A DNA stretch of 20,712 bases from a virus. A program made the translations under genes and the position numbers. The stretch covers positions 1-20,712 of IMG/VR virus record IMGVR_UViG_3300002231_000790. One strand, given 5' to 3'. The stretch's first letter is position 1, and every line of letters begins with the position of its first letter. The notes under the pieces were generated by a model that ran no database searches, was not told the origin of the DNA, and worked only from the letters and a program-made list of their open reading frames with translations. This document shows positions 1,672 through 20,061 of the stretch, in pieces.

Positions 1672-1677
1672 TCATTC

Positions 1678-4032: not shown

Positions 4033-4051
4033 AAAAGCTCCTAACTAAATA

Positions 4052-4477
4052 TTATTCGCCGTGAGGCATAGTCATCCATAAAACACTGGTTAATTTATTT
4101 ATATTGTTAGCGCCAATATTAATATCGAAACCAGAAACAGTCTGATTTTCTACAATAGGAGCAAAATTAGAATTACTAGTTGTAACAGCAGATAAAGAAA
4201 TCGAATAATTAGTATCTGGATAAGACGAAGCGAAAGTAACCGTTGCCTTTTTTGGATTACCACTAAATGCAGCCTTCAACTCAACACCAGCCTTAGCACT
4301 TGCCCCTGGACCCGAACCCCCAGCATCTGTATACGTCCAATTGCCGGTACCCGCTACATACTCCAGATGCTGACCATCCGTAGGACCAGAACCAGAAATG
4401 GTGATACCACCAATATTCTCGTCAGCATAGTCCTTATTAGTAACATCTGTACCGACTGTAGGGGCACCTACACCCAC
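4052..4477 (-). CDS. C-terminal fibre fragment with lectin-like domain
   Basis: This is an open frame of 141 residues whose only start is GTG 4477, without a proper Shine-Dalgarno. The first residues (GVGAPTVGTDVTNKDYADEN) are normally internal to a phage fibre, the linker after a DGNKI element, so this looks like the detached C-terminal half of the fibre gene ending at 4523, which is in the same frame. Residues about 63-141 (GVELKAAFSGNPKKATVTF, NYSISLSAV, GFDINIGANNINKLTSVLW) are a small beta-sandwich resembling the H-type-lectin-like domains on phage fibre tips. They are a clear paralogue of the C-terminus of the 238-residue protein encoded at 5381-6097. Likely role: receptor-binding tip. 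Whether it is translated alone is doubtful. Confidence 0.6.
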   Translation of the reverse strand: MGVGAPTVGTDVTNKDYADENIGGITISGSGPTDGQHLEYVAGTGNWTYTDAGGSGPGASAKAGVELKAAFSGNPKKATVTFASSYPDTNYSISLSAVTTSNSNFAPIVENQTVSGFDINIGANNINKLTSVLWMTMPHGE

Positions 4478-4522
4478 GAATACTTATTACCATCCACTAT
4501 CGATAGTACCACGAAAGAAGTA

Positions 4523-5368: not shown

Positions 5369-5380
5369 TTACTGCCCTCC

Positions 5381-6097: not shown

Positions 6098-6108
6098 GTT
6101 ACCCCTCC

Positions 6109-7017
6109 TTAATCAGTTTTAACCAGATAGATCTTCCATGAAGCGTCGTTAGCACCACTTGTATCAACAACAACTTTAACTCTACCATACCTGGCCGGTA
6201 TTGGGGTATCGGCTAGAACATAATCGCTAAGTGTAAATTCCTCCCTGCATTGAAAAACTATTGGTTCATACTGCGCTACTGTATCAGTAACATCACACAT
6301 AGCGGATATTTCCACAGAACATGTAACTGTCCCAGAACCGCTATTAAGTATGAATTGTATACCAAAATATTTATATTCACGTAAATCAAACGGATAATAA
6401 TAAGTGTTATCAACGCCATTAGTTACATCAACTAATTTTGTGCATGAATCATCATCATCTAAACTAATCTCCCCACCAATACCAAAGTTATGAAGGGGGT
6501 TTTGTATAGTAATAGAATCTAATAAAATATCACTAAGTGTATTAGTAGACGAATCAAAAACAACAGACAGTGCCATGTAATTGACATCATACCAATTTAT
6601 ACCTTCCCCTATCTGAGAAGAATCAGTACACTTGAATGCTATCTCGTTCCACCCACTCTCTAATGTATCAACACTTTCTGTCCATTTAAAGTGATTGGAA
6701 CTATCAGTACCTAGTAAAAAATCAACCGAACTTACATCTGCTACAGATGAAAGATATACCCATAAATAGATATACCCTGTTCTAGAAAACATATCTAAAT
6801 CAAGCTCACCAGTAGCAGAGGGATTTCTAGAAATAGTGGCCATTGTTGCACCACTAATCTTATCAAAAGATATGGAATTCTTACCAGTTACATGACTACT
6901 GCCCAAAGATACATCACCAGCCGCCGACGAAGAAGACCAATACTCGTACGTTTTGCCGTCCTCCAATGCCACTTCATAGCGTATAGAGTTCTCAAACCGA
7001 GATTTATCTGTGGACAT
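6109..7017 (-). CDS. Virion adsorption protein, carbohydrate-binding-like beta-sandwich
   Basis: This is a 302-residue protein from ATG 7017; the upstream GGTGAT is a weak ribosome site. It has no signal peptide or membrane segment, is poor in Lys/Arg, and is rich in Ser, Thr, Asp and aromatics. Residues about 50-172 read as a jelly-roll (GYIYLWVYLSSVADVSSVDF, then SGWNEIAFKC, WYDVNYMALSVVF, LSDILLDSITI), the pattern of carbohydrate-binding-module-like or laminin-G-like domains. A second beta domain follows (YYYPFDLREYKYFGIQFIL, GTVTCSVEISA, RYGRVKVVVD). It is the first of the fibre-type genes after the head module. Inferred role: base or shaft of the adsorption structure that binds glycans or the next fibre. 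I do not recognise a named family. Confidence 0.6.
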   Translation of the reverse strand: MSTDKSRFENSIRYEVALEDGKTYEYWSSSSAAGDVSLGSSHVTGKNSISFDKISGATMATISRNPSATGELDLDMFSRTGYIYLWVYLSSVADVSSVDFLLGTDSSNHFKWTESVDTLESGWNEIAFKCTDSSQIGEGINWYDVNYMALSVVFDSSTNTLSDILLDSITIQNPLHNFGIGGEISLDDDDSCTKLVDVTNGVDNTYYYPFDLREYKYFGIQFILNSGSGTVTCSVEISAMCDVTDTVAQYEPIVFQCREEFTLSDYVLADTPIPARYGRVKVVVDTSGANDASWKIYLVKTD

Positions 7018-7029
7018 ACTATATCACCG

Positions 7030-7374
7030 CTACACTACACGCGGCATTGGTTTTTGAACCGGGGTTACCTTCCCAACCTTCCTGCGTTCGAAATCTATAG
7101 CCCAGTTACCTTCGCCCAAACCCATGCCTGTGATTATTCCTTGTTTAGCGTTTGCTAAGTTCCTATCCGCAGTGTTGCAGACATGAGTCAAATGACCCAC
7201 CACCTGCATCAACCGTCCAAGCTCATTCCTAGCATTTTCCAACTCTACAGCATGAACCTGAACCCTTTCCAAGTCTTCATAGTATTCTTCTGGAATATCT
7301 ATAAAGCTATCCTCTTCCACAGGTACGTGTTGGCCTTTAACACCAACCCTGTCGTGCACAACAAAATTACTCAT
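7030..7374 (-). CDS. Small structural protein with central helix, unknown function
   Basis: This is a 114-residue protein starting at ATG 7374, with AAAGGAG seven bases upstream. An acidic N-terminal stretch (VPVEEDSFIDIPEEYYEDLE) leads into a likely helix or coiled coil at about 32-80 (RVQVHAVELENARNELGRLM and onward). A Gly-rich turn (GMGLGEGNW) and a basic Pro-containing tail follow. It lies between a membrane protein gene and the fibre genes with short spacing, so co-expression with virion genes is expected. No family recognised; it could be a minor virion protein or a chaperone for fibre assembly. Confidence 0.6.
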   Translation of the reverse strand: MSNFVVHDRVGVKGQHVPVEEDSFIDIPEEYYEDLERVQVHAVELENARNELGRLMQVVGHLTHVCNTADRNLANAKQGIITGMGLGEGNWAIDFERRKVGKVTPVQKPMPRVV

Positions 7375-7384
7375 GGCAACTCCT

Positions 7385-7720
7385 TTACTTCAAATACTCT
7401 TTAGTAAAGTACCTGTCTGAAATATCGTGTAAATGATTAGAAAGTCTATGGCAGGCCACTAAGAACAAAAAGGCATCAAGAAAAACGACACCTAAAAATG
7501 AGGGTGTAAAAACTATGAACACCAACAATGTAAGAAACATCGCGGTCCAAACGGAGCTGCAGTACGGACACTCTATAGCCCTACTAAAAAACTGTAATAC
7601 AGAGTTCGTCCTATTGCTCAGAAAAGACCGGAATGGCCCAAAGAACACAGACTTTGACAACAACTCAGCCAGACCTTCATTGACTACTATACTTACTAAT
7701 AAAATAAGAAAGTACGACAT
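7385..7720 (-). CDS. DUF1360-like membrane protein
   Basis: This is a 111-residue protein from ATG 7720. The N-terminus is a membrane segment (SYFLILLVSIVV, residues 2-13) and there are further hydrophobic segments at about 59-73 and 75-90. The central motif CPYCSSVW (51-58) and the ending CHRLSNHLHD (90-99) match the layout of DUF1360 proteins, short bacterial and phage membrane proteins with a CPxCxxxW motif and unknown function. The paired cysteines could bind metal or form a disulfide. It is unusual to find an integral membrane protein between capsid and fibre genes. It could act at the host membrane during assembly or adsorption, but nothing in the sequence proves that. A holin is less likely because no endolysin is nearby. 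Confidence 0.65.
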   Translation of the reverse strand: MSYFLILLVSIVVNEGLAELLSKSVFFGPFRSFLSNRTNSVLQFFSRAIECPYCSSVWTAMFLTLLVFIVFTPSFLGVVFLDAFLFLVACHRLSNHLHDISDRYFTKEYLK

Positions 7721-7731
7721 GTCAATACCTA

Positions 7732-8190
7732 TTACGAAAGTTCTGTCATACGTTCCCTGATAAGTCTAACAAGAGTTTCCTTACCGGGGCGATTCTTACA
7801 TAGAGTGTGGGCTCTTCGTAATTTATGTATGCTCATAACTTCCTGCAGGACCAACTTCGGTTTATCCTTTATCTTTAAATCTGCAATTTGTCGCGCAGTA
7901 AGGTTAGTAGGGTGAATTCGTTGCGGTTTCACTGCTACTGGTTTTTCTTCTTCGACTACAGAGGTGTCAACATCCTGCTTAACATCCTCAACAACAATAT
8001 CAAAACCACTTCCCTTTGGTATCTTTGTTTTTTCTAGCCACTCAAGAAAATCTAAATCAAAATCACCACCATAAGACACAGAGTATTGGTCATATAACTT
8101 ATCCAGAGGTACTTTCATCCCTGGAGAAACACTCTGCTTAAAAATATGCTTACCGCGACCAAGGTTGTTAACAACATAACCCTTAATCAT
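7732..8190 (-). CDS. Conserved-looking phage structural-operon protein, unknown function
   Basis: This is a 152-residue protein from ATG 8190, with GGAGGTG close upstream. It is the first gene after the capsid gene and its hairpin. The N-terminal part (about 1-55: MIKGYVVNNLGRGKHIFKQ, then YGGDFDLDFLEWLE) looks like a small folded domain. An acidic linker at 66-84 separates it from a basic helical C-terminal domain (about 92-150: HPTNLTARQIADLKIKD, IHKLRRAHTLCKNRPGKETL). The position fits a head-completion or capsid-associated protein, but I see no diagnostic motif. Its TAA is followed at once by TAG, a double stop. Confidence 0.6.
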   Translation of the reverse strand: MIKGYVVNNLGRGKHIFKQSVSPGMKVPLDKLYDQYSVSYGGDFDLDFLEWLEKTKIPKGSGFDIVVEDVKQDVDTSVVEEEKPVAVKPQRIHPTNLTARQIADLKIKDKPKLVLQEVMSIHKLRRAHTLCKNRPGKETLVRLIRERMTELS

Positions 8191-8220
8191 TAAAACACCT
8201 CCAATAAAAATAAATAAACT

Positions 8221-8275
8221 GCGCTACAGCGCCTTGTAACTAAGTAAGCCGGGAATTACCCCGGCTTACTTAGTT
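8221..8275. terminator. Hairpins after the major capsid gene, terminator or 3'-end stabiliser
   Basis: AACTAAGTAAGCCGGG at 8238-8253 pairs perfectly over 16 bases with 8260-8275, leaving a six-base loop. It sits eight bases past the capsid stop codon. The T-run directly next to the stem (GTTGTTTTTAT) is on the plus strand, so as a simple intrinsic terminator it faces rightward. On the minus (gene) strand a second small hairpin, GCGC-TGTA-GCGC at 8221-8232, is followed by a T-rich stretch (AGTTTATTTATTTTTATT). Together they may end or attenuate minus transcription after the capsid gene, or protect its mRNA 3' end. Confidence 0.7.
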
Positions 8276-8282
8276 GTTGTTT

Positions 8283-9356
8283 TTATAGGCTACGGTCGAT
8301 GACGCCCATACCAAGCATTCTAGAGTCAAGGCATGCGAAGCCAACAATTTCCCAGCCGTAGAAGCCTTGCTTCTGTCGCCTGTGAAGAGTTGGGTCATCG
8401 TATACTTCGAACTCCTGCTTGATAGGCATAACCAACGAATCGTTGGCTGTCATATCAAAGCCCCAAATCTGGGTTTCACCAGCAGTTGTAACCTGACCGT
8501 CAGCATCTACAACATTAGGATTATCAAGGTGATAATCATTGTAGTCTCCGGCGCCGTCGGCTAAGAAAGTGCCGTACAACGAGGTCGAACCGTTAATGTT
8601 GAACTTACCTGGACCACCAAGATGTCGCATCTCATGCAACTGGATATTCCAGATTGCGCCCATACCAGCCGCCTGGAAAATCTCACGACGGGTAACAGGG
8701 TCGATGTCTGTCTCAGTCCACTCACGGATATCAGCAGCATCCTCAGGAGCTACCCAAAGATCCGTTAGTGTGCGACCGACGCGTTTATAGCCGACGATCA
8801 TCTGATTGATAAGCTCTTTAGACAAGTATCCAGCACCAGTAGATGCTGCTGCAACCTCATACACAGGTGCGTTCCTAGCAGGAAGCAACCCTGTTGCAGC
8901 GAAGTTAGTACAACCAGCAGGCACAATTACGCGCCACGCACTCTCTTCCTCATACTCAGCAATAGCGCCAGCAGCCTTACGGGCTGCACGAGCGGCGATG
9001 TCCACACGAGACTCACGAGCATACTGAAGCTTCCAGTCTGCAGAAGTATCAATGGTGAAAGTGGGGACGTATACGTCCTCACCAACGCCTTCAATAAAGT
9101 TCTGGGCTACATAGCCAAGTCCCGGTAGGACCCATACTGGCAGTTCAAAGTCGTCAGCCACAGGGTACACAGCCTGTGCGCCTGGCTCAAGTACCTCTAC
9201 TGCGAACAAGTCGCGAGCAGAAGACTGATACTTAATCTCTTGCAGGATTGGGGTTTTAATTGCAGCACAAAATTCTTTATATGCTACTTGGCCTTCAGGG
9301 GTCTCCATCGCAGCCGTGGTTCTAAATAGCTCTTTAAGTTCCCTTAGAGTATCCAT
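8283..9356 (-). CDS. Major capsid protein, HK97-fold type
   Basis: This is a 357-residue protein from ATG 9356 behind a very strong TAAGGAGGT. It follows the scaffold and decoration genes in the usual order. An N-terminal helix (residues 1-34) precedes the E-loop/A-domain region. WVAPEDAADIREW at about 201-213 and the C-terminal segment (DSLVMPIKQEFEVYDD, then GFYGWEIVGFACLDSRMLGM) are typical of HK97-like capsid proteins of myoviruses. The role is to form the icosahedral shell after scaffold-driven assembly and protease maturation. No obvious cleavage site is visible at the N-terminus. The base composition is richer in G+C than the fibre genes, as is common for the most highly expressed phage gene. 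The family call is by pattern, not alignment. Confidence 0.88.
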   Translation of the reverse strand: MDTLRELKELFRTTAAMETPEGQVAYKEFCAAIKTPILQEIKYQSSARDLFAVEVLEPGAQAVYPVADDFELPVWVLPGLGYVAQNFIEGVGEDVYVPTFTIDTSADWKLQYARESRVDIAARAARKAAGAIAEYEEESAWRVIVPAGCTNFAATGLLPARNAPVYEVAAASTGAGYLSKELINQMIVGYKRVGRTLTDLWVAPEDAADIREWTETDIDPVTRREIFQAAGMGAIWNIQLHEMRHLGGPGKFNINGSTSLYGTFLADGAGDYNDYHLDNPNVVDADGQVTTAGETQIWGFDMTANDSLVMPIKQEFEVYDDPTLHRRQKQGFYGWEIVGFACLDSRMLGMGVIDRSL

Positions 9357-9366
9357 AGCTACCTCC

Positions 9367-9858
9367 TTAGACCAAGGCCCTGATCATTAACATTGCACCA
9401 GCGGCGGTCTGCGTAGCAGTCAAGCTATTCATTGCCACTGCTGCAGCTGCTGCTGCAGAATCGGCATTGGTATCAGATAGCTTTCCGTCGTCATCTGGGT
9501 ACAATAGGGTTCCGGCATCGATACCATCGCTACCTTCGTCTACATACTGGTCAGTCTCATAAACAGCCCCAGGTCCACACGCGACACCAACAGGGTCACC
9601 GACAAAAGCGTCGGAAGACCCAAGGTCTCCACGTAGCATGAAACCAGCGGGGAAATCTGTGTAAGGATCCTTCACCTTCTGCATGAGCCACCCAATTGGT
9701 AACTGGGCTGCTACACTTGCATCAGCGATGGTGTCGACTTCTCGATCACCAGTGACCCTAACGAGACGTCCAGCAGGAATAGGGCGGTCTTCCGTTGGAG
9801 AAGCCGCAAATTTAAAGAACTGAACTTCCTGTGCAGGATGTCTGAGAACGAACGCCAT
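9367..9858 (-). CDS. Putative capsid decoration/stabilisation protein
   Basis: This is a 163-residue protein starting at ATG 9858, preferred over an in-frame upstream ATG at 9900 because AGGAGG lies about six bases before 9858 and inside the longer reading. It lies directly before the capsid gene and after the scaffold, the usual place for a decoration protein or head stabiliser. Sequence: PIPAGRLVRVTGDREV, then PIGWLMQKV and GVACGPGAVYETDQYV, a beta-rich pattern typical of small head-decoration barrels. It ends in an Ala/Thr-rich hydrophobic tail with six alanines in a row. Inferred role: binds the mature shell surface and strengthens it. Confidence 0.65.
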   Translation of the reverse strand: MAFVLRHPAQEVQFFKFAASPTEDRPIPAGRLVRVTGDREVDTIADASVAAQLPIGWLMQKVKDPYTDFPAGFMLRGDLGSSDAFVGDPVGVACGPGAVYETDQYVDEGSDGIDAGTLLYPDDDGKLSDTNADSAAAAAAVAMNSLTATQTAAGAMLMIRALV

Positions 9859-9871
9859 GTTTATCCTCCTA

Positions 9872-10624
9872 TTATTGATTATCCTTGGACGCTTCGCCAC
9901 GACGTTCCCTTAGATAACTAGCAAGACCAGGACCAAAGTTGGCCCACTTACTATCGTTATCTGAGGTCTCAGCGTTTGGCAATGTGGCCGAAGCTGTTTC
10001 TAAAGCACCTTTTACATCGACTGGCGGGGTTTGAACGTCATCGTCCTCCTCATCTCCAGTCGCACTAGCATTTTCCTTTAGGTCGTCATTGTCTGCACCA
10101 GCCTCAGGAGCAGCCGGCTCCTCTGGTTTGTAAGACGCAGCAATTTCGTCCCTGAAGGCTACCATATCATCTTTATAAGCCGCGAAATCTTCGTCGGACA
10201 TCTCACGGACAAGCAGCGCCTGTTTATCACGGGCTTCACCTGCGCGGGCAATTTTCAACCCGTCTAAATCGGCCATTCTGTCGTCCGTAAGTTTGTCCTT
10301 CGCCATGGTTTCAAGAGTAGACTCAGCCGTCTCAACACGAGCAAGAAGGACTTCCTTCTCTGCATTAAGACTTACGACCTCGTCCTTTTTCGCAGCCAGC
10401 TCTGTCACAAGCTCATTTTTCGAAGCTTCGAGGGCCTCAATGGCCTCGGAATCAGAAGATACACGGACCTCCAGCTCAGCTACCTTATCTGCCATATCAC
10501 TGACAGATTTCTTAGCTTCGTTCAAAGCCTCTTCGACATCGACTTGAAGACCGGCTAAGGCCTTCTTGTCTAGGATGTCTTCAACGAGCTTGACAACGTC
10601 GTCTCTGACTTTGTCGATATCCAT
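9872..10624 (-). CDS. Capsid scaffold (prohead core) protein
   Basis: This is a 250-residue, highly charged protein with almost no aromatics in its first 150 residues, starting at ATG 10624 behind AGGAGG. Residues about 28-120 are a long predicted coiled coil (heptad-like VAELEVRV, IEALEASKNELVTELAAKKD). A very acidic, Ala/Pro-rich linker follows (about 163-200, with GDEEDDDV), then a C-terminal segment ending KWANFGPGLASYLRERRGEA, a plausible capsid-binding helix. Composition, length and position before the capsid gene match scaffold or core proteins of large tailed phages. It would form the prohead core and be cut by the protease encoded just upstream. The stop overlaps the region before the decoration gene. 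Confidence 0.8.
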   Translation of the reverse strand: MDIDKVRDDVVKLVEDILDKKALAGLQVDVEEALNEAKKSVSDMADKVAELEVRVSSDSEAIEALEASKNELVTELAAKKDEVVSLNAEKEVLLARVETAESTLETMAKDKLTDDRMADLDGLKIARAGEARDKQALLVREMSDEDFAAYKDDMVAFRDEIAASYKPEEPAAPEAGADNDDLKENASATGDEEDDDVQTPPVDVKGALETASATLPNAETSDNDSKWANFGPGLASYLRERRGEASKDNQ

Positions 10625-10672
10625 TTATTAACCTCCTAAATTAGCCATAGGTCTGAACACACCTAGACGTCA

Positions 10673-10984
10673 TTAGACTGACAAGTTGAATGCAACATAG
10701 TAAAACTTTGCACTGTTATCACCCTTAAACGTAACTGTTCCATCCCCAAGCTCGATAGCAATTGGGGCAGTTCCAGCAGAACTATCATTGTAGTTTGCTG
10801 TAACAACAGTGTCGGGCTTAAACTGAGTGCCTGTTACAGTCAACAAGCCACCCCCAGTTAACGTCCCTGAAGATGCGACCATAAAATAACGGCTAGCCCC
10901 GCTACGCTTGTCTAGAGGAATCTGCCTACCTTGATCATCTACGTATAGCCTCCTCTTCTTGGGAATGCCTTCATATCTAACCAT
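10673..10984 (-). CDS. Small beta-rich head-module protein, unknown function
   Basis: This is a 103-residue protein. The start is taken at ATG 10984 because GGAGGAGG lies just before it; a longer reading from 11005 would run through that ribosome site. It overlaps the last eight bases of the preceding gene (stop TAG at 10977-10979). A short basic N-terminus (VRYEGIPKKRRLYVDDQGR) is followed by a Gly/Thr-rich beta region (VASSGTLTGGGLLTVTGT, ELGDGTVTFKGD) like a small barrel. It could be a minor decoration or head-fibre anchor. I do not recognise a family. Confidence 0.6.
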   Translation of the reverse strand: MVRYEGIPKKRRLYVDDQGRQIPLDKRSGASRYFMVASSGTLTGGGLLTVTGTQFKPDTVVTANYNDSSAGTAPIAIELGDGTVTFKGDNSAKFYYVAFNLSV

Positions 10985-11489
10985 TATTATCCTCCTCCGG
11001 TTCATTATCGGAAAGAAGCGGTTCTACAGTTTTCGCAAAAAGCTCTTCGCACTTCTCCCAAATAGACAATTCAATTTGGTTGAAACTTGATTTTGATGTT
11101 TTTATTACTGCTCTATGTTTCTCTAAATGCGATGCAGCTCTTTTCCTTAAAGTAGAAGTATCTTCTGTCCCCAATACACTTTTTATTTCATTTACTCGGG
11201 CTAAAGCGTTCCTATAATGCGACAAATCCACGGATGAATTTTCGGTGGCAGACTTAACGCCTTTGGTATGGTGCGGTAAATGCCTTGCACCTTTGTCCTT
11301 TCCATCGCTGTAACCCTTTTCTACGACTGCAAAAGCAGCATTAGGTAAACCATTTATATACTTTCGACTCCACTTTGCGGAATATTCTTTTTTTAAAACA
11401 TCTATCAATAACGAGTTAGCAAATTCTACTGTTTCTAATAAACCTTTAATTAATACAAAAATAACCTTTCTGTCACCCCTATTTGACAT
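10977..11489 (-). CDS. Prohead-module protein with RHLPHH / DLSHYRNALARV motif
   Basis: This is a 170-residue protein from ATG 11489, overlapping the end of the protease gene by 11 bases, so translation is likely coupled. Residues 48-126 carry a recurrent phage motif: LPNAAFAVVEKG, then RHLPHH (69-74), VDLSHYRNALARVNEI (87-102) and a final RKRAASHLEKH. This segment is usually seen as a C-terminal or linker part of prohead-protease or related structural polyproteins. Here it stands as its own gene next to the protease. Its biochemical role is not known to me. It may be a core protein processed during head maturation. The acidic tail (NEPEEDNNG) is short. Confidence 0.6.
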   Translation of the reverse strand: MSNRGDRKVIFVLIKGLLETVEFANSLLIDVLKKEYSAKWSRKYINGLPNAAFAVVEKGYSDGKDKGARHLPHHTKGVKSATENSSVDLSHYRNALARVNEIKSVLGTEDTSTLRKRAASHLEKHRAVIKTSKSSFNQIELSIWEKCEELFAKTVEPLLSDNEPEEDNNG

Positions 11490-13197
11490 TGGTCACCAAC
11501 TTAGTTTCCTCCAAAATATCATTTAATGAGGAAAGAGCTTTAGTAACTCCCACTGATTTTCTATTTTCTTGTAGCTTTTCGAAATAATTTGAAACAACGT
11601 CCTTGGTAGTTCTATCTAACACAAGCCTTAAACACTCAGGATGTACTGCTACCCCACCTGGTGTAGTACAAGCTGAATCAAATAAAGCACACCAATTCTC
11701 ATGTACAATTGTATCGTCCTGTGTAATAACACCACCAGAACCACCCCCCGTAGGAGCTGGGAGTGAATCTACTTGCTGTGCGATACCTGGAGTTTTATCT
11801 GGGTTTGCAGGCTCACCAGAACCACCAGTACCAGCCTTACCATAAACATATCTCTTAAAACTTACGCATGATTCGGGGGTAGATTGCGGACGACCATCCA
11901 CCCAACCTGTACCAGCTGCATCTTTTTTTACTTTATCACCCATAGAACTTTCCATCTTTAGTATATCAGAAGGCGTAACGGTCTTAAGCTTAGTACCGTC
12001 TTCAAGCTCTACGACATGGTAATGAACACCACCAAATGTGGTCTCCCCAATATTCTCCCCCTTCTTAAGTTTTACCTTATCAGAATCATAGTCATACTTT
12101 TCATTTACATCTACACCGAAAAGCTCATGAGCATGCGCCTTTACAGGGCCACTTGACTCAATTGCTGAATAACCACCGCCTTTCTTTTCAACATATACCT
12201 TATGTGTATGACCATCTTCAGAAGAAATTTTACCATTTTTTTGGTCGAAAGGATGACGATGAGCGCCATCACTTACAAAGTACAAATAGACATCGTCAGG
12301 CAAGGTTTCTGGCCAAACCACATGCGTATGTGTGCCGTCCAAAAAAGTCTCTGCCTTATCAACCTGAACTTCGTGTCTATGAGATCCGCCGTAAGAAGCA
12401 CTAATATAAGCTTGGTCCTTCTCAACACCTTCCAAGCTGTTAATAACAATAGATTCTTTTTCTTGCTTAGCTTTCATGTAACTATCAACCTTTGTTAAAT
12501 CCAAGATATAATTATCATTTTGGTTGGCTGCTGTCTCTAAAATAACAGATTCTGGATTAGCTGGATTTTCCACCAAGCCACAACCAGAGAAAAGCATACC
12601 GCGAAGAACACGCCCTACACGATGCTTACCTTTCTTTTCAGCGCCCTCTATAACAGTTACTACGTTGTTAATAACATCTACCAAACCCAAAGAACGTGCC
12701 TCTAATTTTGGAATAATGATGTTATCTACAATAATATCAAAGTCTCTATAGAAACACTCCATAGACACTTTATATTTCCCCTCGCCAACCTCCTCGGCTA
12801 ACTCAGGGAAACGTGCTTTATATAAACGCATTGCTGCGACAATGTCCATTGGCACACTATCTATATCATTACCAACTGTCTCATACAATTCGTGTGGGTC
12901 AAAGACAGAACCGTCTTTATTTGCAAACACACTAGAATACATATGACCAACAATTTTTTCCTGGTCATGCTCGATATCTAAAGGCTTTTCAGCAATAGTA
13001 TTTCTAGACTTATAAAGCTCGGACGGTAAGAAATATGCCGAATTAAGATTATACCCAGACGATACAAAAACAGCTGTAATATACTGTAAATCCGGCTGTC
13101 TACTTTCCGGAGCTGGTATCCCCAGTGCATTAGAAATCTCAAGCGAGGGTGCCCCAGTTTGAACATTTGCGTATAGTCTCATTTTATTAGTGGACAT
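11479..13197 (-). CDS. Prohead maturation protease with HxH-rich insertion
   Basis: This is a 572-residue protein from ATG 13197, overlapping the portal's last codons. The first 220 residues look like a herpesvirus-type prohead protease. LDIEHDQEKIVGHM at 73-86 would supply the catalytic His (H77), KVSMECF at 143-149 the nucleophile Ser (S145), and FSGCGLVENPANPES (203-217) is the usual end of that domain. Residues 273-394 then carry six H-x-H motifs, each preceded by a Gly/Asp turn. A Gly/Pro-rich linker and a C-terminal helical part containing C503, C510 and C522 follow. It is more than twice the length of common prohead proteases. The expected role is cleavage of scaffold and itself during head maturation; the His-rich part may bind metal. 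The catalytic assignment is by motif only. Confidence 0.72.
   Translation of the reverse strand: MSTNKMRLYANVQTGAPSLEISNALGIPAPESRQPDLQYITAVFVSSGYNLNSAYFLPSELYKSRNTIAEKPLDIEHDQEKIVGHMYSSVFANKDGSVFDPHELYETVGNDIDSVPMDIVAAMRLYKARFPELAEEVGEGKYKVSMECFYRDFDIIVDNIIIPKLEARSLGLVDVINNVVTVIEGAEKKGKHRVGRVLRGMLFSGCGLVENPANPESVILETAANQNDNYILDLTKVDSYMKAKQEKESIVINSLEGVEKDQAYISASYGGSHRHEVQVDKAETFLDGTHTHVVWPETLPDDVYLYFVSDGAHRHPFDQKNGKISSEDGHTHKVYVEKKGGGYSAIESSGPVKAHAHELFGVDVNEKYDYDSDKVKLKKGENIGETTFGGVHYHVVELEDGTKLKTVTPSDILKMESSMGDKVKKDAAGTGWVDGRPQSTPESCVSFKRYVYGKAGTGGSGEPANPDKTPGIAQQVDSLPAPTGGGSGGVITQDDTIVHENWCALFDSACTTPGGVAVHPECLRLVLDRTTKDVVSNYFEKLQENRKSVGVTKALSSLNDILEETKLVTNVK
12010..12396 (-). repeat. Coding region of six H-x-H motifs in the protease gene
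   Basis: Within residues 268-396 the pairs H273/H275, H290/H292, H313/H315, H330/H332, H355/H357 and H392/H394 occur at intervals of 15-37 residues. Most have the form G-x-H-x-H followed by hydrophobics (GSHRHEV, GTHTHVV, GAHRHPF, GHTHKVY, GVHYHVV). The DNA is not repetitive; this is a degenerate protein repeat, probably successive beta-hairpins. Confidence 0.75.
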
Positions 13198-13199
13198 TA

Positions 13200-14426
13200 C
13201 TATTCCTCACTATCCTCTGAAATCTTTTTAAGAGTTATATTTCTAGCAACGTGTGTTAGCTCTGCTAATTCATCTATACTCATCTCTTGTAGCAAAGTCT
13301 CTAATGATGCCTCATCGACGGGACTCTGTTTATCTGCCTTTGGTTTTTTTGGCTTGCTTGAAGGACTAGGCTTCTTAGCAGGCTGTCCTGGTGGCCTACC
13401 TTCTGATGGTGTACCTTTTGGAGTCTTTTGCGTCTCCTGTACACCGCTACCACCAGACGACTGTTGGTATGGTGACCCAAGAACACCAAGAGTACCATCC
13501 TGAACCAATTTACTTTCAAACTCCATCTCAGAAAGCATGGTCTCAAAATCAAACCCAAGCATCTCGTGCCCAGTCCTGTAAGAAATAATTCGTCTATCAA
13601 TCATGCCCTGAATAACGTTCATCATAAGAATCTCGTCTTTCAGAACCATATTATCAAATCTTACTTTTGGGTACCTATCAAACCCCATTGCTTCCGCAAC
13701 ATCTCTATACTCAGCATATATCCAACGAGATACCTGCTTACGAGCGTAATAGATTTCCTCTCTTAGGGCTTTTACAGCCAAATCAGCTGCTGGTTTACTA
13801 GGGCTACCTACACCATCAATTAGTGCACGGATAACACCAAAAGCACCGGTAATATCATCATTTACCTGACGATATTTATCCTGCCCAAGAATATCACCTA
13901 CATCACTAGGTTCGATTCTCTGTACCTTTAAAGTATGGTCCCATACTACATTAAACGCTTTAGAGGGGGTATCAAAAAGCTCAGCCACAGCTTCAAGTTG
14001 CTCTTGCCCTTTAACTGGAAATTCATCATTTCCAATAGTAATAGCAAGGACAAAATTAGTAATTCCATCTAGTGTGGAATAATCAGCTTCTCTAAGAGCA
14101 CGCTTATATTCCATACTCTCGAATGCACGAATGCCTCGCGGGAACGGATATGACTCATAGGGCTGCCTACGATAATCAACCGCTCCTACCAGGTATGGGT
14201 TTAGCGGCAGGTCTTCACCTGCTTGCGCTGCCTTCTTAAATTCTGATGGAAGTCCTTTAAGAATTATCTTCTGATAATCAGTTAAATCTGACTGGGGAGT
14301 CTCCAAAAGGTCCTTGACGCCTTTAAGCGCTTCCGCTTTAAGTATAATAATTTGTTGGTCCATAAGTAAAGAACTTTTATCAACTTCTATCTGGGTGGGG
14401 TTAAGAATAGTGTATTTTATAGGCAA
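13200..14426 (-). CDS. Portal protein, C-terminal part (separate frame)
   Basis: The frame codes for 408 residues if a TTG at 14426 is taken as start. There is no ATG, only AAGGA four bases before. It is in the +1 frame relative to the 234-residue gene ending at 14443, and that frame is open upstream through the A-run, giving KKYRWSKDSLPIKYTILNP across the join. The start PIKYTILNPTQIEV is the middle of a portal (the iPxxYxxLNP element), not an N-terminus. Later parts fit the portal wing, stem and clip: LKVQRIEPSD (about 165), a Gly-rich loop before AADLAVKALREEIYYARKQV, then the helical VLKDEILMMNVIQGMIDRR. The C-terminal 80 residues are Pro/Lys/Ser-rich low complexity. Portals form the dodecameric DNA channel and packaging-motor dock. 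Confidence 0.8.
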   Translation of the reverse strand: MPIKYTILNPTQIEVDKSSLLMDQQIIILKAEALKGVKDLLETPQSDLTDYQKIILKGLPSEFKKAAQAGEDLPLNPYLVGAVDYRRQPYESYPFPRGIRAFESMEYKRALREADYSTLDGITNFVLAITIGNDEFPVKGQEQLEAVAELFDTPSKAFNVVWDHTLKVQRIEPSDVGDILGQDKYRQVNDDITGAFGVIRALIDGVGSPSKPAADLAVKALREEIYYARKQVSRWIYAEYRDVAEAMGFDRYPKVRFDNMVLKDEILMMNVIQGMIDRRIISYRTGHEMLGFDFETMLSEMEFESKLVQDGTLGVLGSPYQQSSGGSGVQETQKTPKGTPSEGRPPGQPAKKPSPSSKPKKPKADKQSPVDEASLETLLQEMSIDELAELTHVARNITLKKISEDSEE

Positions 14427-14442
14427 TGAATCCTTGGACCAC

Positions 14443-15147
14443 CTATATTTTTTTGCTAGCTCTCTCTTTTTCCAGTTGGGCTGCTCTTTCCTTGTGTTGT
14501 TTCAGAAATTCTGATGCAACGTCTTCTTTTACTTTCTTAATTTTCTGACCAGGAATCGGAGAAACATAATTAATTTTAGGCTCATACTTACTTACCACTT
14601 TATATGTTCTAACAAACCCGCTTCTAAAAAACTCAAAGAAAACCTGTTCTGTGGTTACATCAAATCCAGTATCCACAACCCAATTATCAAAGAAGTTTTT
14701 AATGTTAGGATCGTCAATATCATTGCGCAATCCCTTCGAAGCAAAATTTGTCATCAAGTCTATAGCAGAACCATATACGTCCTGTGACTTATAGTACTCC
14801 ATTGCTCTCTTATAAAGTTCTTGTGGTTTGGCAGTAGTAACAGAAGGCTTTTTTGTTAGGTCTAAATAATCACCACCGAGGGGGTCCCTTCTAATACTGG
14901 ATGCAGTCTCCATCCTAGTCCTTCTTAACTTGTGAGCATCTTCTCTATCTATCGCCGGTAACGACTTATATGTTGGAGTTTCAGTATTCATCATGGATAG
15001 GGCCGTATCTAAATGGTCCTCGTGGCCACTTACAAGTATAGACATACTACCGTCCTCATTATCAATGATATCATGTATATTGACATTTCGGAACTTGGCG
15101 TCAAGTCTATTCTTAATCTGTGTTAAATCTAGATTGGTTTTATCCAT
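14443..15147 (-). CDS. Portal protein, N-terminal part (ends at frameshift)
   Basis: This is a 234-residue frame from ATG 15147, immediately after the large terminase stop. The part at about 105-185 (PQELYKRAMEYYKSQDVYG, AIDLMTNFASKGL, FDVTTEQVFFEFFRSGFVR) is the typical N-terminal wing of portal proteins of large tailed phages. After a charged linker (KEDVASEFLKQHKERAAQ) it ends SKKI at TAG 14443, right behind seven A (minus strand; plus coordinates 14448-14454). If one A is dropped, it continues without a stop into the C-terminal part and yields a single portal of about 648 residues, a size normal for the family. So this is half a portal. Confidence 0.8.
   Translation of the reverse strand: MDKTNLDLTQIKNRLDAKFRNVNIHDIIDNEDGSMSILVSGHEDHLDTALSMMNTETPTYKSLPAIDREDAHKLRRTRMETASSIRRDPLGGDYLDLTKKPSVTTAKPQELYKRAMEYYKSQDVYGSAIDLMTNFASKGLRNDIDDPNIKNFFDNWVVDTGFDVTTEQVFFEFFRSGFVRTYKVVSKYEPKINYVSPIPGQKIKKVKEDVASEFLKQHKERAAQLEKERASKKI
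14448..14454 (-). other. A7 homopolymer at the portal frame change
   Basis: On the minus strand the codons read AGC AAA AAA ATA TAG. The downstream half needs a +1 shift (one base skipped or two added). A -1 slip on AAAAAAA gives only about a dozen extra codons before TAA, so a classical -1 frameshift would not rebuild the portal. Loss of one A, or polymerase slippage on the run, would. Confidence 0.75.
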
Positions 15148-15149
15148 GT

Positions 15150-16832
15150 TTATCGCCTACCAGGTACTCTCAGTGCATTACTAATAACAGGAGGAGCAGA
15201 ATGTACTCTATCCACTGGTATTACCAACCCACCTTGATTAACATAGTATGTCTCCTCTTCACGAGCAACGACTGTATCATACAGTCCCTTTGCTGCTAAA
15301 ACAAATGCGGAATATAAGTCCTTTTTTCTTTTACCTTTGCCGGAAGCGGGTATATCGAAATGGACAAGCCCACTCTTAGTTTGGGTTGATGTTATCAGCA
15401 TCATCTGATTCATCATTTCTTTGATATCACCAAAGATATGCTCTTTATCTTCGTTTCCATCTGTTGGCTGCAAGGGGAACCTTAATAGGTCCTGCTCTAA
15501 CAAATTCAATGCAGCAAAGACTGATTCAGCATTTGTTCTTGGGCTAGGGTCCTGCATTCTTAAAATGCGTTGTCCCTTTAATTTCTTGTGGTCATCATCA
15601 TCCATATCTAAAATCAAATGGCCTTTAGAGAACTGTTCACTGGATAAAATATCCTTTATTGCTACACCACCACCACCAGCACCAGCATCCATCATAACTA
15701 AAGTAGCATCAAACTTATTACAGAAATCATATATAATCTGTGACATTTTAGGAAATGTCTCACCCGTAACCTGAAATGCATGTACTACAAATGAAGGATT
15801 GCCCACTTCTATAACTACTACAGCAAAAGCATCTGAAGAACGGGCAGGGTCAACACCTATGATATACTTTTTACCAAGCTCACCTTTAATCCTAACTGGG
15901 CAGGCTCTGGTTTTACACGACTCAAGCAAAGAGGCTTTAAAAACACCATCACTATCAGATTCCCAAATACCCCTATACTCCAAATTGAATTCAATCCTAC
16001 TCATAGTAGTTTTTGCTTCATTAATATTGTTAGAGTCTAAGAAACCCTCTGCCATGTCTTCATACGATACAGAACACAGACCATATTTGTCTGAACCCTT
16101 ATCTATTTCTTCTTGGTACTTCTGTATCCTTCTGTAAACATGATTAAATTGGTAATAAGCAGAAGTAACACCAACAATCTTATTGGTCTGCATACCATCT
16201 CTTTCGTATTCGTACTCATCCAGTGTTAAAATACCGTCTTCTAACTTATCTTTTAACATCTGCAAGCGCCTGACATTTTCCATAGGAGATGTCGTAGTAG
16301 CACCCATAGGACGAATAACCATCTCAAAAATATCTTCTGGTACTTGTGCAAACTCATCCACCAGGATGAAGTGACCACGAAGACCACGAATCCTAGAACC
16401 ATCACCTAATGGATACGCTTCGATAGAAGAACCAGTCTTATCACCTGTACCACGAATATTAAGATAACACCTATCAGAACCCACGATAGGTTTCTTTTGA
16501 CAGGCCTCACGAAGTAACGGACTTTCTGTGTGCCTTTTTTTCAATTCCTCGAAAACCATTTTACTCTGCCTGAAAGAAGGACTCATTATAAGAACCCTCT
16601 TACCAGGATACAACAAACCGTATAATGCACTAACTACTGAAAGAAGGAAGGACTTACCACAACCACGACCTGCTGTCACGATTGTATATGGTCTGAACCA
16701 CATCTCTTCAAGGATAATCTTCTGAGGGGTATCTAAATCTAGACCTAATAAATCTTCAGCCGCGAATACAGGGTGGTCCCTGTAAAACCCAATCATATCT
16801 ATGGCTTTGTCAGAAAATTGCCTCTTTCGCAT
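15150..16832 (-). CDS. terL: Terminase large subunit (packaging ATPase and nuclease)
   Basis: This is a 560-residue protein from ATG 16832. Q37 in TPQKIIL acts as an adenine-binding element. Walker A is GRGCGKS at 55-61 and Walker B is FILVDEF at 155-161 with D159/E160. A coupling motif VTSAY lies at 222-226. The RuvC-like nuclease follows: GVDPARSSDAF at 326-336 (D328), VMMDAG at 379-384 (D382) and KKDLYSAF at 503-510 (D505). All key residues are present, so both the DNA-translocating ATPase and the headful or site-specific cutting nuclease should work. Length is typical. It lies between the small subunit candidate and the portal, the standard order. The acidic stretch DMDDDDHKK (409-417) is a possible local insertion. 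Confidence 0.95.
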   Translation of the reverse strand: MRKRQFSDKAIDMIGFYRDHPVFAAEDLLGLDLDTPQKIILEEMWFRPYTIVTAGRGCGKSFLLSVVSALYGLLYPGKRVLIMSPSFRQSKMVFEELKKRHTESPLLREACQKKPIVGSDRCYLNIRGTGDKTGSSIEAYPLGDGSRIRGLRGHFILVDEFAQVPEDIFEMVIRPMGATTTSPMENVRRLQMLKDKLEDGILTLDEYEYERDGMQTNKIVGVTSAYYQFNHVYRRIQKYQEEIDKGSDKYGLCSVSYEDMAEGFLDSNNINEAKTTMSRIEFNLEYRGIWESDSDGVFKASLLESCKTRACPVRIKGELGKKYIIGVDPARSSDAFAVVVIEVGNPSFVVHAFQVTGETFPKMSQIIYDFCNKFDATLVMMDAGAGGGGVAIKDILSSEQFSKGHLILDMDDDDHKKLKGQRILRMQDPSPRTNAESVFAALNLLEQDLLRFPLQPTDGNEDKEHIFGDIKEMMNQMMLITSTQTKSGLVHFDIPASGKGKRKKDLYSAFVLAAKGLYDTVVAREEETYYVNQGGLVIPVDRVHSAPPVISNALRVPGRR

Positions 16833-16838
16833 ACTGAA

Positions 16839-17594
16839 CTACTTCTTGGACTTTAACCGCTCAAACTCCTTCTTTTCTTCTGCCAAAGACTGTAGCCTGT
16901 CCTCGAACTCGGATTTCTGTTGAGCATCATGTGCATATACTAAGTCCACTATACTAAAGTTCTGTTTATTTTTTGGGTCAATTCTATCAGACCTTCTGGC
17001 TGCAAGGTTACCTTTAACCTTTTCGGAATGCTTCCTAAACTTCTCAATAGTTGCAGCGGCATCCATTAACAGATTCGGGTCAGAAGCAGTAATAGCCAGC
17101 AACCGATACTCTAGTACCCTGTTGACAGCTAAACTTACAACATCTTCTATATCAGACGAACTTAACTCATCTAAATCAAAATCAGATAAAAATGAATTTA
17201 GAACAGTATAGAAAGTTTTTTCTTCTTCCACATCTTTCATTACCCTTCTATCAGGTAAGAAAGATGCTATTTGTTCTTGTGGGTAATTTTCCGGCAGCTT
17301 AATGAAATCAAATGGATTTACATCTGCACGTTTCTTTGGAAACTTAAGCGCCTTTACCACCTCTTTTTTTGCCTTCGTAGGCTTGTCCTTTCGATATTGA
17401 AGGAGATTTGCACGACTTTTAGGATTACTACGAGCTTTAGGGCTCTTATGTTTCTCCTTAGCTAAATCTTCTTCTGTTGGTAAGGGAGCAGTTTTCCACT
17501 CCTTATCAGCTATCTCACCTATTAACTCAGGACCAAGTTTTTCCTCAGCTGTCTCGACATCAACAACTATATCTTTATCCTTCTTCTTAGACAT
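16839..17594 (-). CDS. Putative terminase small subunit
   Basis: This is a 251-residue protein from ATG 17594, sharing one base with the preceding gene's stop (TAATG), which suggests translational coupling to the NusG-like gene. A basic N-terminal third contains SPKARSNPKSRANLLQYRKD (51-70), a form seen near the N-terminus of several small terminases. A helical core follows (about 125-200, LNSFLSDFDLDEL, DVVSLAVNRVLEYRLLAI, AAATIEKFRKHSEKVKG), and a charged coiled-coil tail (224-251). The call rests mainly on position directly upstream of terL, plus composition. Role: recognises phage DNA and stimulates the large subunit. No classic helix-turn-helix is obvious by eye. Confidence 0.6.
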   Translation of the reverse strand: MSKKKDKDIVVDVETAEEKLGPELIGEIADKEWKTAPLPTEEDLAKEKHKSPKARSNPKSRANLLQYRKDKPTKAKKEVVKALKFPKKRADVNPFDFIKLPENYPQEQIASFLPDRRVMKDVEEEKTFYTVLNSFLSDFDLDELSSSDIEDVVSLAVNRVLEYRLLAITASDPNLLMDAAATIEKFRKHSEKVKGNLAARRSDRIDPKNKQNFSIVDLVYAHDAQQKSEFEDRLQSLAEEKKEFERLKSKK

Positions 17595-18079
17595 TATTTC
17601 TCAACTATTTCAAGATCTTCAGAGGAAAGTGTGTAATCTATACTTCTATCGAACATATTTACTTTAATGGTAACCTTATTACCACTTATAGAATTAACTG
17701 TACCCTTACATTTTTGAAAGGGGCCACTAATAACCTCCACCCTATCACCAACCTCTACTTGTTTATTAAGAACGTTCCACTCTTCTTTCTTCTTCATTTC
17801 TTCCACAGAAGACTGTGGGCAAACACCAACATAATTAGTTACAAATGGATTAGAACGAATCTTGTAATAAAGTTTATTGTCATCATCGCTGTAACGAAGA
17901 AACAAATAACCAGAGTATAATGGAACCCTGCGCTTGTGCAGTCGCTCTCCAATCCTACACTCTTTCAATACTGTTGGGAAGAACACTTCCTCCATTTCAG
18001 GAACCTCTGTCTCAAGAAAATACTCAATGGAGTCGAATTTATTCTGCTTTATTACCCAAATGTGCCAACAAGAAGACAT
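17594..18079 (-). CDS. NusG-family transcription elongation/antitermination factor
   Basis: This is a 161-residue protein from ATG 18079 with AAGGA nine bases upstream. Residues 1-88 are an NGN domain (CWHIWVIKQN at the start, VFFPTVLKE at 32-40, PLYSGYLFLRY at 53-63 equivalent to the PLFPGYLF element of NusG). Residues 107-135 are a KOW motif (QVEVGDRVEVISGPFQKCKG), and a small beta barrel completes the protein. Length and layout match bacterial NusG/RfaH. NusG proteins bind the RNA polymerase clamp and control pausing and termination; specialised paralogues (RfaH, LoaP) work on single long operons. This gene lies near the head of a long late operon and probably lets phage polymerase complexes read through it. 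No leader or signal peptide. Confidence 0.9.
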   Translation of the reverse strand: MSSCWHIWVIKQNKFDSIEYFLETEVPEMEEVFFPTVLKECRIGERLHKRRVPLYSGYLFLRYSDDDNKLYYKIRSNPFVTNYVGVCPQSSVEEMKKKEEWNVLNKQVEVGDRVEVISGPFQKCKGTVNSISGNKVTIKVNMFDRSIDYTLSSEDLEIVEK

Positions 18080-18090
18080 AATGTAAATCC

Positions 18091-18345
18091 TTATTTTTTG
18101 TCTTTCACTCTATTAAGATGCTTACACGGTCCACATATAACTACAACAGTATCCTCGGTTACATGCAGGTCCCTCCCACAATTATCACAAATCAACAAAA
18201 CATTAGTTGGTTTGTGTTTAGTGGGCCTAGAAAACTCAAATGGGAGGTTCTTATGCGTGTCCGCAAAACGACTCTCCTTGTGAATGCGCTCGTTATACTT
18301 ACGAGAGCCTTTATCCATTTTATTTGCACCTTCGCGCGCTGACAT
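18091..18345 (-). CDS. Small zinc-ribbon protein
   Basis: This is an 84-residue protein from ATG 18345, with AGGAGAGG six bases upstream. The basic N-terminal half (GSRKYNERIHKESRFADTH) is probably flexible. The C-terminal half has CDNCG at 53-57 and CGPC at 71-74, a four-cysteine zinc ribbon with a short beta insert between the knuckles, then HLNRVKDKK. It could bind nucleic acid or a protein. Its position 12 bases before the NusG-like gene makes a transcription or RNA-polymerase-associated role attractive, but that is inference from context only. Confidence 0.7.
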   Translation of the reverse strand: MSAREGANKMDKGSRKYNERIHKESRFADTHKNLPFEFSRPTKHKPTNVLLICDNCGRDLHVTEDTVVVICGPCKHLNRVKDKK

Positions 18346-18357
18346 TTAAAACCTCTC

Positions 18358-18561
18358 CTATAAATCAGAAAGAATAGTGCTAGGACTAGATGGAGGCCTG
18401 ACTACAATTGGATTATCTCCAGACGACCTATCATACCCCTCCTTAAAAACAGGCACGCGTGAATGACGAGCCGCAACTACTTCTGGATGCGGAATATCCA
18501 ATTCTCTTACGTTTTCAGGTAATGGATAAAGCCTTCTAGGTTTACGGATAATCTCAGTCAT
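18358..18561 (-). CDS. Hypothetical 67-residue protein
   Basis: This starts at ATG 18561, one base after the kinase stop, with GGAG inside the kinase 3' end as ribosome site. The sequence is Pro- and Arg-rich (KPRRLYPLPENVRELDIPHP, then VVRPPSSPSTILSDL) with no hydrophobic core, so it is likely disordered or a peptide that binds another protein. No family recognised. The close packing in the operon and the ribosome site support it being real. Confidence 0.55.
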   Translation of the reverse strand: MTEIIRKPRRLYPLPENVRELDIPHPEVVAARHSRVPVFKEGYDRSSGDNPIVVRPPSSPSTILSDL

Positions 18562-18562
18562 T

Positions 18563-19222
18563 TTATCTTAGCTCCAGTTTGACTAACATTTTGTCAACCG
18601 TGTTGTACAAGACATTTAAAGTCTTGCCATCATTTTTAAGCTTGTAAGACCAAGTATCCCAGTTGTCCAAGGCTGTTTCGGAAGGGTGGTCTGAATTCAA
18701 CACCACTCCGTGCAGTGCCCTAAGTTCTTCTGGTCTATCAATTCTAACAAGACACCCACCGTGTTCTAGCACACCAGCCGCCTCATTTTGAAATCTAACA
18801 TCAGTAATAATAATGTTTTCATCCGCGTTAGCAGAACGAAATACCACCTCATAATGATAGTCAGAAACGTAAAACCGCATAACTTCAGTGCCAACAAACT
18901 GCAGGATATCTCTAGGCTTTAATAGCTTAACACCTAACAGTGTAGAATAATCTTTTGATTCTAAGGCTACGTCATGCGTTTTACGCATCCATCTTATTAA
19001 ATCTTCTAAGATTGGCTTTGTTATTTCAGCCGGTGTACCTAGATTTGTGCTCTTTCCTTGTTGTGTAAGTACCTGGTCATATGTAAGACCAAAGACTTCA
19101 ACACATGCTGTTTTTAAATTAGACGCAAATCCTATCTTTCTATCAAAGTTGTAATTGTCTAATAAATAATCTGCTACGCTATCTTTCCCTGCCAACGCTT
19201 TACCGGCTAAACCTAAAATCAT
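18563..19222 (-). CDS. Deoxynucleoside monophosphate kinase (T4 gp1-like)
   Basis: This is a 219-residue protein from ATG 19222. The P-loop is at 4-14 (GLAGKALAGKD, the GxxxxGKD form used by this family). LKPRDILQFVGTEVMRF at 101-117 matches the PREiLQxxGTExxR motif, IITDVRFQNEA at 138-148 is the family signature, and SDHPSETALD at 177-186 is the lid/substrate element. Phage dNMP kinases phosphorylate dGMP, dTMP and modified dCMP to diphosphates for replication. Presence of the gene implies a phage that manages its own nucleotide pool. It lies two bases after the preceding gene. An adenylate-kinase-like NTPase of other specificity is possible but less likely. Confidence 0.85.
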   Translation of the reverse strand: MILGLAGKALAGKDSVADYLLDNYNFDRKIGFASNLKTACVEVFGLTYDQVLTQQGKSTNLGTPAEITKPILEDLIRWMRKTHDVALESKDYSTLLGVKLLKPRDILQFVGTEVMRFYVSDYHYEVVFRSANADENIIITDVRFQNEAAGVLEHGGCLVRIDRPEELRALHGVVLNSDHPSETALDNWDTWSYKLKNDGKTLNVLYNTVDKMLVKLELR

Positions 19223-19223
19223 G

Positions 19224-19481
19224 TTACTTCATCCTGTCAAGGTGGTCAAGAGTTTTAGAAAACTGTCTACTAGATTTCAACACATCAAGAAAATCACCGT
19301 CGCCCCTTGTGCCATCTGAATCGTTTCCTCTGTCTACCGGAGTAAAACGCACCATCATTTCTTGACACGGTAAATTACCAGCAATTCTCGAAATGCATGT
19401 TTTATAAAAGATTTCATCGCAAAAACAGACTTCGTCATCGTCCGAAATATGAACAACTTTATTTATAACTTTAGACCTCAC
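19224..19481 (-). CDS. Hypothetical protein, first gene of the long operon
   Basis: This has 85 residues from GTG 19481, chosen because AGGAGG lies nine bases upstream (19491-19496); an in-frame GTG at 19514 would put that site inside the gene. The sequence contains three cysteines near the N-terminus (VCFCDEIFYKTC), an acidic patch (SDDDEV) and a Ser/Lys-rich helical tail (LKSSRQFSKTLDHLDRMK). No family recognised. It is the promoter-proximal gene after about 580 non-coding bases and runs straight into the dNMP kinase gene. Confidence 0.55.
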   Translation of the reverse strand: MRSKVINKVVHISDDDEVCFCDEIFYKTCISRIAGNLPCQEMMVRFTPVDRGNDSDGTRGDGDFLDVLKSSRQFSKTLDHLDRMK

Positions 19482-19502
19482 GTCAAACTTCCTCCTAGGA
19501 CA

Positions 19503-19531
19503 AAAATAATACACTAGGATAGATTTGTAAA
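19503..19531 (-). promoter_or_regulatory. Weak sigma70-like promoter candidate
   Basis: On the minus strand TTTACA (19526-19531) is followed after 17 bases by TATTTT (19503-19508); an overlapping TATTAT would have only 14 bases spacing. Transcription from it would begin close to the AGGAGG of the 85-residue gene, leaving almost no leader. In such AT-rich DNA a match of this quality may be chance. Confidence 0.25.
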
Positions 19532-19693
19532 CCTTGTTGATTAAAAATCTTTTTTGGGAAACAGCTCTACAAAAGTTGCAAACAATTCCCTCCCAATACT
19601 TTTTGAGTCATTTTATGGTACCGGAAAGAATCTACCCCTTATACTATATCTACCCCATAGACTAGGTCTAGGGACTGCGCGTGTATTTAAGAA

Positions 19694-19709
19694 ATCTTAT
19701 ATATAAGAT
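19694..19709. repeat. Perfect 16-base palindrome
   Basis: ATCTTATATATAAGAT equals its own reverse complement over all 16 bases. It may be an operator-like site or a melting element in the non-coding region. Confidence 0.7.
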
Positions 19710-19780
19710 ATCTTAGTTAGAGAAATAAGAAGATTATTATTCTTATTAGAGAACCCTACTAATAGAGATTATGACTCTTG

Positions 19781-19809
19781 GTAGAGTATTTTCAAAGAAA
19801 ATACTCTAC
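19781..19809. repeat. Perfect 13-base-pair hairpin with 3-base loop
   Basis: GTAGAGTATTTTC (19781-19793) pairs with GAAAATACTCTAC (19797-19809) around AAA. No T-run follows on either strand, so it is not an intrinsic terminator. On the minus strand it would be a stable stem in any leader of the long operon. Confidence 0.8.
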
Positions 19810-19915
19810 GTGATATTCTTAATCTTATCTTTTAAGATATTCTTTTATCTATACCCTAGTCTATGCTATAGTCTATACCATAATCCTAGCCATTTTGGAA
19901 GTGAGAAATCTCTGT

Positions 19916-19958: not shown

Positions 19959-20021
19959 TATTGGGTACCTGTGGTACTAGAAAGCAATCTAATTGCCTCA
20001 GTGCCCCCTGTACGCTCTTGT

Positions 20022-20055: not shown

Positions 20056-20061
20056 TTGAAA

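Follow-up and report, generated by a model that had tools for sequence, protein, structure and literature searches.

A terminase-linked NusG paralogue paired with a zinc-ribbon protein as a candidate elongation factor for a phage late operon

An NGN-KOW gene in the packaging region of a phage record

The window analysed here, a stretch of 20,712 nucleotides from a 33,242-bp viral record (G000), carries on its minus strand an intact open reading frame whose 161-aa product, the phage NusG, has the arrangement of an NGN domain followed by a KOW domain that marks the NusG/Spt5 superfamily. Both domains score above their Pfam cut-offs (NusG PF02357, residues 4-89, 26.7 bits against 22.2; KOW2_Spt5, residues 111-144, 33.1 bits against 28.9), which bears out the original prediction of a complete NGN plus KOW protein. 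An AlphaFold2 model (pLDDT 80.6) shows an NGN and a beta-barrel KOW, and its top PDB matches are NusG, archaeal Spt5 and RfaH. Additionally, the protein matches PHROG 6386, labelled "transcription antiterminator", with 48 bits. None of the NCBIfam cut-offs is reached: the scores are 43.2 bits for NusG (TIGR00922; cut-off 135.7), 41.0 for LoaP (NF033641, the second-best profile; cut-off 125), 35.8 for UpxY (NF033644; cut-off 100) and 31.2 for RfaH (cut-off 144.5), so that the phage NusG is about equidistant from all four.

The sense strand reads, in order, small ORF, deoxynucleoside monophosphate (dNMP) kinase, small ORF, zinc ribbon, NusG, TerS-like protein, TerL, portal, capsid and tail (Table 1). 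The first of these ORFs probably has its true start at an internal GTG that follows AGGAGG. The TerS-like protein, for which family profile searches gave no significant match, takes its putative name from its conservation and its place before TerL. In the window the portal is divided between two ORFs (13200-14426 and 14443-15147), where the close relative G001 has a single 648-aa ORF; the split is a frameshift, biological or from assembly. A zinc-ribbon ORF stands directly upstream of nusG, or overlaps it, in 10 of 10 phages. It shares a conserved N-terminal motif, KYRxxIHxxS...NLPFxFSKP, between the window (18091-18345) and L040, L041, L042, L054, L059 and L119, and it has no match to any known family. 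Comparison with Spt4, by sequence and by fold, gave no match for this protein.

Table 1. Features of the window (positions on the 20,712-nt stretch)
Feature	Position	Strand	Remarks
Putative late operon	1..19514	-	nucleotide kinase, NusG, terminase, portal, capsid and tail genes
Strong hairpin between major capsid gene and next gene	8236..8277	-	fold z -7.9
Terminase large subunit TerL	15150..16832	-	
TerS-like protein	16839..17594	-	start codon overlaps nusG stop (TAATG)
Phage NusG paralogue	17594..18079	-	NGN 4-89, KOW about 105-160; 161 aa
Zinc-ribbon protein	18091..18345	-	CxxC...CxxC, 84 aa; 11 nt upstream of nusG
Small conserved ORF	18358..18561	-	67 aa; same unit as nusG, upstream of it
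Deoxynucleoside monophosphate kinase	18563..19222	-	phrog_139, 122.7 bits
Conserved small ORF, first gene of putative late operon	19224..19514	-	
Promoter-like site P2	19503..19531	-	TTTACA-N17-TATTTT; 93% identity to sister phage
AT-rich, palindrome-rich non-coding core	19682..19842	.	upstream of P2; 13-bp perfect hairpin inside

The same-strand gene run seen in the original prediction does reach the left edge of the window, where an ORF is still open at 1-1167; its supposed beginning at nusG does not stand, since the whole 33,242-bp record is coded on the minus strand. A 145-kb relative (G003) is likewise coded nearly all on one strand. Strand therefore does not mark the operon, the head of which is marked by the non-coding gap 19515-20061 and the promoter-like site at 19531-19503. 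Counted from this gap nusG is the fifth gene, inside the putative late operon rather than at its head, and it is the second gene before terL, not the fourth. The record is a fragment, and the late transcript is visible only in part. Elsewhere in the record, the stretch G000:19000-33242 (L004) holds genes that we named by reading the sequences, without family searches, as a cold-shock protein, a methionine aminopeptidase, an M42 peptidase, a trypsin-like protease and a DnaX-like clamp loader; most of them are common to the relatives.

Carriers, descent and diagnostic residues

Searches for relatives returned nine related viral contigs with the capsid protein as query and 63 with a TerL alignment. 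Within one TerL subclade, all contigs that cover the region have nusG at the same place, with an identity to the window's protein of 96% in G001, 78% in G002, 56% in G003 (= G004 = L053) and 31-36% in G006, G007, G008, L054 and L059. L119, a contig binned in an Altiarchaeales MAG, encodes a NusG of 29% identity and keeps the order zinc ribbon, NusG, TerS. These three genes occur together in ten distinct phages, which include every relative spanning the region. When 26 records were searched whole, an NGN domain was found in both members of the nusG-bearing TerL clade and in none of the 24 records (up to 234 kb) from the sister TerL clade, a distribution that is suggestive of absence, given that individual records may be fragments.

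Several of these contigs have features of separate interest. Near the terminase genes there are likely mobile insertions: a zinc-finger/HNH-like ORF that separates TerS from TerL in G003 (L037, 24-1310), an ORF resembling a nuclease-associated motif that separates NusG from TerS in L119 (1909-2397), and very long TerL ORFs, possibly with inteins, in members of the sister clade (L097-L110). A DNA-level search of known phages gave no match, and neither did a search of 395 genomes of one phylum (E 1e-15), run without a positive control. The closest BLAST matches in records labelled as phage were rejected as phage NusGs, because several turned out to be bacterial contigs with a ribosomal operon (secE-nusG-rplK) or host sequence inside a phage record; MT837033, MT837544 and MW495066 carry such operons and look like mislabelled or contaminated bacterial contigs.

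The gene is under strong constraint. Between G000 and G001, dN/dS is 0.026 for nusG, 0.027 for the capsid gene and 0.046 for terL, whereas the kinase (0.147) and one other gene of the virion operon (0.317) have higher values; purifying selection on nusG thus equals that on the capsid. A maximum-likelihood tree built from 29 sequences places the phage NusGs on one branch and the housekeeping NusGs on another, each with 99/99 support. The phage NusGs also join RfaH in this tree, possibly through a long-branch effect, and we do not rely on that grouping.

In the scheme proposed by Wang et al., specialised paralogues lose the Rho-contact loop I164-F165-G166 first, then gain affinity for RNA polymerase (RfaH F56), while recognition of ops and autoinhibition arise last (PMC7593976). 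In our alignment, the Rho-contact loop reads [I/V/M]FG in all 21 housekeeping NusGs and is altered in all ten phages (MFD, MFD, LFD, LFG, RSG, RAD, SLG, AQN, VSN and ILG); the combination of an I164-F165-G166 loop with an FGRxTPVEL motif, typical of housekeeping proteins, is not found in the phage proteins. The position of RfaH F56, associated with tight RNA polymerase binding, is Phe in 10/10 phages and in only 2/21 housekeeping NusGs, and the clamp-helix patch, in which L54, Y55, Y58 and F60 are invariant, is among the best conserved parts of the protein. By contrast, features of the last steps are lacking: the ops-contact position R73 differs in all ten phages (Pro), the F130 position is Val in all ten, I93 is matched by Ile in one phage protein only, and the KOW is modelled as a beta-barrel rather than in the alpha-helical state of autoinhibited RfaH. 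As judged from these residues, the first two steps of the scheme look taken and the last two not. The loss of Rho contact appears less certain in the G000-G003 subclade than in the G006-L059 subclade, because the former keeps F165 of the loop and R167, so that some contact with Rho or S10 could persist there. The branch outside housekeeping NusG, the fixed place before terS-terL, the altered loop and the F56-type residue together answer the phylogenetic check attached to the original prediction, in favour of a specialised protein over a recently captured one.

Upstream region, promoters and hairpins

Sites matching P2 occur at the same place in G001, G007, G008, L054 and L059, and the last four share the consensus TTTAC[A/T]-N17-TAT[T/A]AT; the sigma-70-like promoters sit in intergenic sense positions. 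The recurrence of P2-type sites argues for a bacterial host polymerase of the sigma-70 type. An archaeal host, as the bin of L119 could imply, seems improbable, since both the sigma-70-type promoters and a lipoprotein resembling lytic transglycosylases point to bacteria; the remaining bins are Geobacteraceae and WOR-3.

The non-coding core of about 160 nt upstream of P2 is 90-97% identical between G000 and G001 in nearly all 40-nt steps, whereas its flanks are 50-65% identical, and the structured part (19680-19829) folds with a z of -4.8 relative to shuffles. It may be a leader RNA, an operator or a replication origin. The upstream region of G007, G008 and L059 has, in this order, an intrinsic terminator followed by a promoter-like site, then a GC-rich hairpin with GGGGGACGATRA, and finally P2. 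A long leader is missing from G003/G004 and L054, which nevertheless keep nusG. A covariance model of the hairpin, made from three leaders, had no match in the window's leader or in G003, and Rfam had none in the records searched. The GGGGGACGATRA motif by itself was rejected as evidence, as it also stands just before the terL starts of L060, L065, L066 and L108 and there resembles a ribosome-binding site. The UNCG hairpin recognised by LoaP is absent from the window's leader and from 7/8 upstream regions, and no ops element of the RfaH type was found, the best match in any leader being 8 of 13 bases. From these comparisons, the structured element appears to be conserved within subclades and not to be a common partner of nusG. 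The original prediction had borrowed from LoaP the idea of a hairpin leader and had proposed a survey of relatives for its co-occurrence with nusG. The comparison does not support this idea: the structured block precedes the likely promoter, it varies from one subclade to another, and two relatives that bear nusG lack it.

A strict scan for intrinsic terminators (stem of at least 7 pairs, at least 4 G-C pairs and a T-rich tail) found no strong one on the sense strand of the window or of 21 kb of G003. The three phages with GC-hairpin leaders (G007, G008 and L059) have one strong terminator each, directly before the leader; beyond these, the scan gave only weak candidates. The strong hairpin noted earlier after the capsid gene is real, but the sense-strand sequence behind it is ACAAGG, without a U-tract, and it is therefore not an intrinsic terminator for the putative late operon; stabilising or processing the transcript is its more likely function. 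Hairpins at this place recur in most relatives (L017-L025, L113 and L114), with stem sequences that differ and pairing that is kept. The lack of strong intrinsic terminators in the operon leaves a LoaP-type factor with little to read through, and it is more economical to assume an RfaH-like role, in which the protein would protect against Rho and pausing.

A candidate role in late transcription and its alternatives

NusG is the only universally conserved family of transcription factors, and to our knowledge the phage antiterminators lambda N and Q, Xp10 p7 and HK022 put RNA are unrelated to it. Late transcription regulators of the RinA/ArpU type are encoded directly upstream of terS and are DNA-binding initiation factors; the phage NusG has the same pre-terS position and a putative late-gene role, but belongs to an elongation-factor family. 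Like proteobacterial RfaH, it has the F56-type residue within a PL[F/Y]xxYxF patch, a shorter NGN without the NusG insertion and an altered Rho loop; it differs from RfaH in profile score, in the F130 and R73 positions, in its KOW (an alpha-hairpin in RfaH), in the lack of an ops element and in being encoded in cis in the phage operon. LoaP, which serves antibiotic operons in Bacillota, resembles it in combining NGN and KOW, in adjoining a long operon and in a profile score close to that of NusG, and is set apart by its cut-off, its UNCG hairpin and the terminators it reads through. It is a recognised pattern that long operons encode NusG paralogues within them, and those of plasmid tra operons, TaA and UpxY are, like the phage NusG, encoded in cis in their presumed long target operon (PMC7593976, PMC7819879). 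The phage protein is distinguished from these by the virion operon in which it lies, its separate sequence clade and its zinc-ribbon partner. Other phage-encoded NGN-KOW proteins, namely g104 of Synechococcus phage S-CRM01, the NusGs of LR745206 and LR756502 (635/642 kb) and PHROG 6386, provide a further comparison: they keep the housekeeping FGR motif and fall elsewhere in the tree, and no terminase gene was noticed in the stretches inspected.

The fold, the conservation, the selection, the fixed place, the altered Rho loop, the F56-type residue, the lack of strong terminators and the bacterial-type promoters favour a phage-specific NusG, and we think it probable, if far from settled, that this protein acts on host RNA polymerase as a processivity and anti-Rho factor dedicated to the late operon. 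Searches of six phage records for an RNA polymerase beta subunit and for sigma-70 region 4 found neither, although the controls gave matches. The NGN would bind the bacterial polymerase of the host and the protein would stay on it along the long operon that encodes it, suppressing pausing and keeping host NusG off, so that the virion transcript would be shielded from Rho, and the KOW may tether a ribosome. Action would be limited to the late operon, with recruitment possibly achieved simply by synthesis from the operon served; the comparison revealed no recruitment element that all relatives share. As nusG lies inside its presumed target, the first NusG must be made without NusG.

Several other readings have to be weighed against this proposal. 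The absence of any sign of RfaH-type autoinhibition (Val at the F130 position, beta-barrel KOW model), together with the F56-type residue, means that the protein could bind any elongation complex, and it might displace host NusG on all polymerases and so alter host transcription or Rho silencing in general. We consider such a takeover unlikely, as nusG is fixed in the late and packaging unit and not in an early block, although the late operon would benefit too and the two roles are not exclusive. It is somewhat more doubtful that the protein works as LoaP does, binding a hairpin in the leader RNA and letting RNA polymerase read through intrinsic terminators. The conserved structured block before the operon in G000 and G001, the order of elements in G007, G008 and L059 and the rank of the LoaP profile agree with that mechanism; against it, the score is far under the cut-off, the hairpin model misses the window's leader, relatives keep nusG without a long leader, UNCG hairpins are nearly absent, the block lies upstream of P2 and strong intrinsic terminators are lacking in the operon. 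To a similarly small degree we entertain that the zinc ribbon and the phage NusG might form a paired, Spt4/5-like two-part elongation factor on bacterial RNA polymerase, possibly loaded at the structured upstream element.

The fixed order of zinc ribbon, NusG and TerS, and the overlap of nusG with the TerS start codon, would also fit a non-transcriptional part for the NGN-KOW protein in DNA packaging, together with its two neighbours. This we regard as very unlikely, because the polymerase-binding patch is among the best conserved parts of the protein and the sister clade packages DNA with a related TerL, no NusG having been found there. Finally, an ordinary host nusG that was captured recently and has not specialised would explain the shared domain architecture, and phage collections do hold housekeeping nusG. 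We give it almost no credence: the tree and the context already refute it, with a separate 99/99 branch, a NusG profile score far below its cut-off, no secE or rplK neighbours, purifying selection and conservation across the lineage.

A search of an open-access collection, with few subscription journals in it, found no paper on a phage-encoded NusG and no functional study, which is weak evidence of novelty. Phage NusGs are already present in databases, under the PHROG 6386 label and as an annotated nusG in cyanophage S-CRM01. The kind is known, and what is new is the terminase-linked, zinc-ribbon-paired lineage.

If the proposed role is true, viruses use the universally conserved NusG family for the processivity of late-gene transcription. 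The phage nusG would be a cis-encoded system with a clear test, the effects of Rho and of pausing on the late operon, and could help to explain how a NusG paralogue that lacks autoinhibition stays on its target. Its constant zinc-ribbon partner raises the question of whether phages that infect bacteria have an Spt4-like helper.
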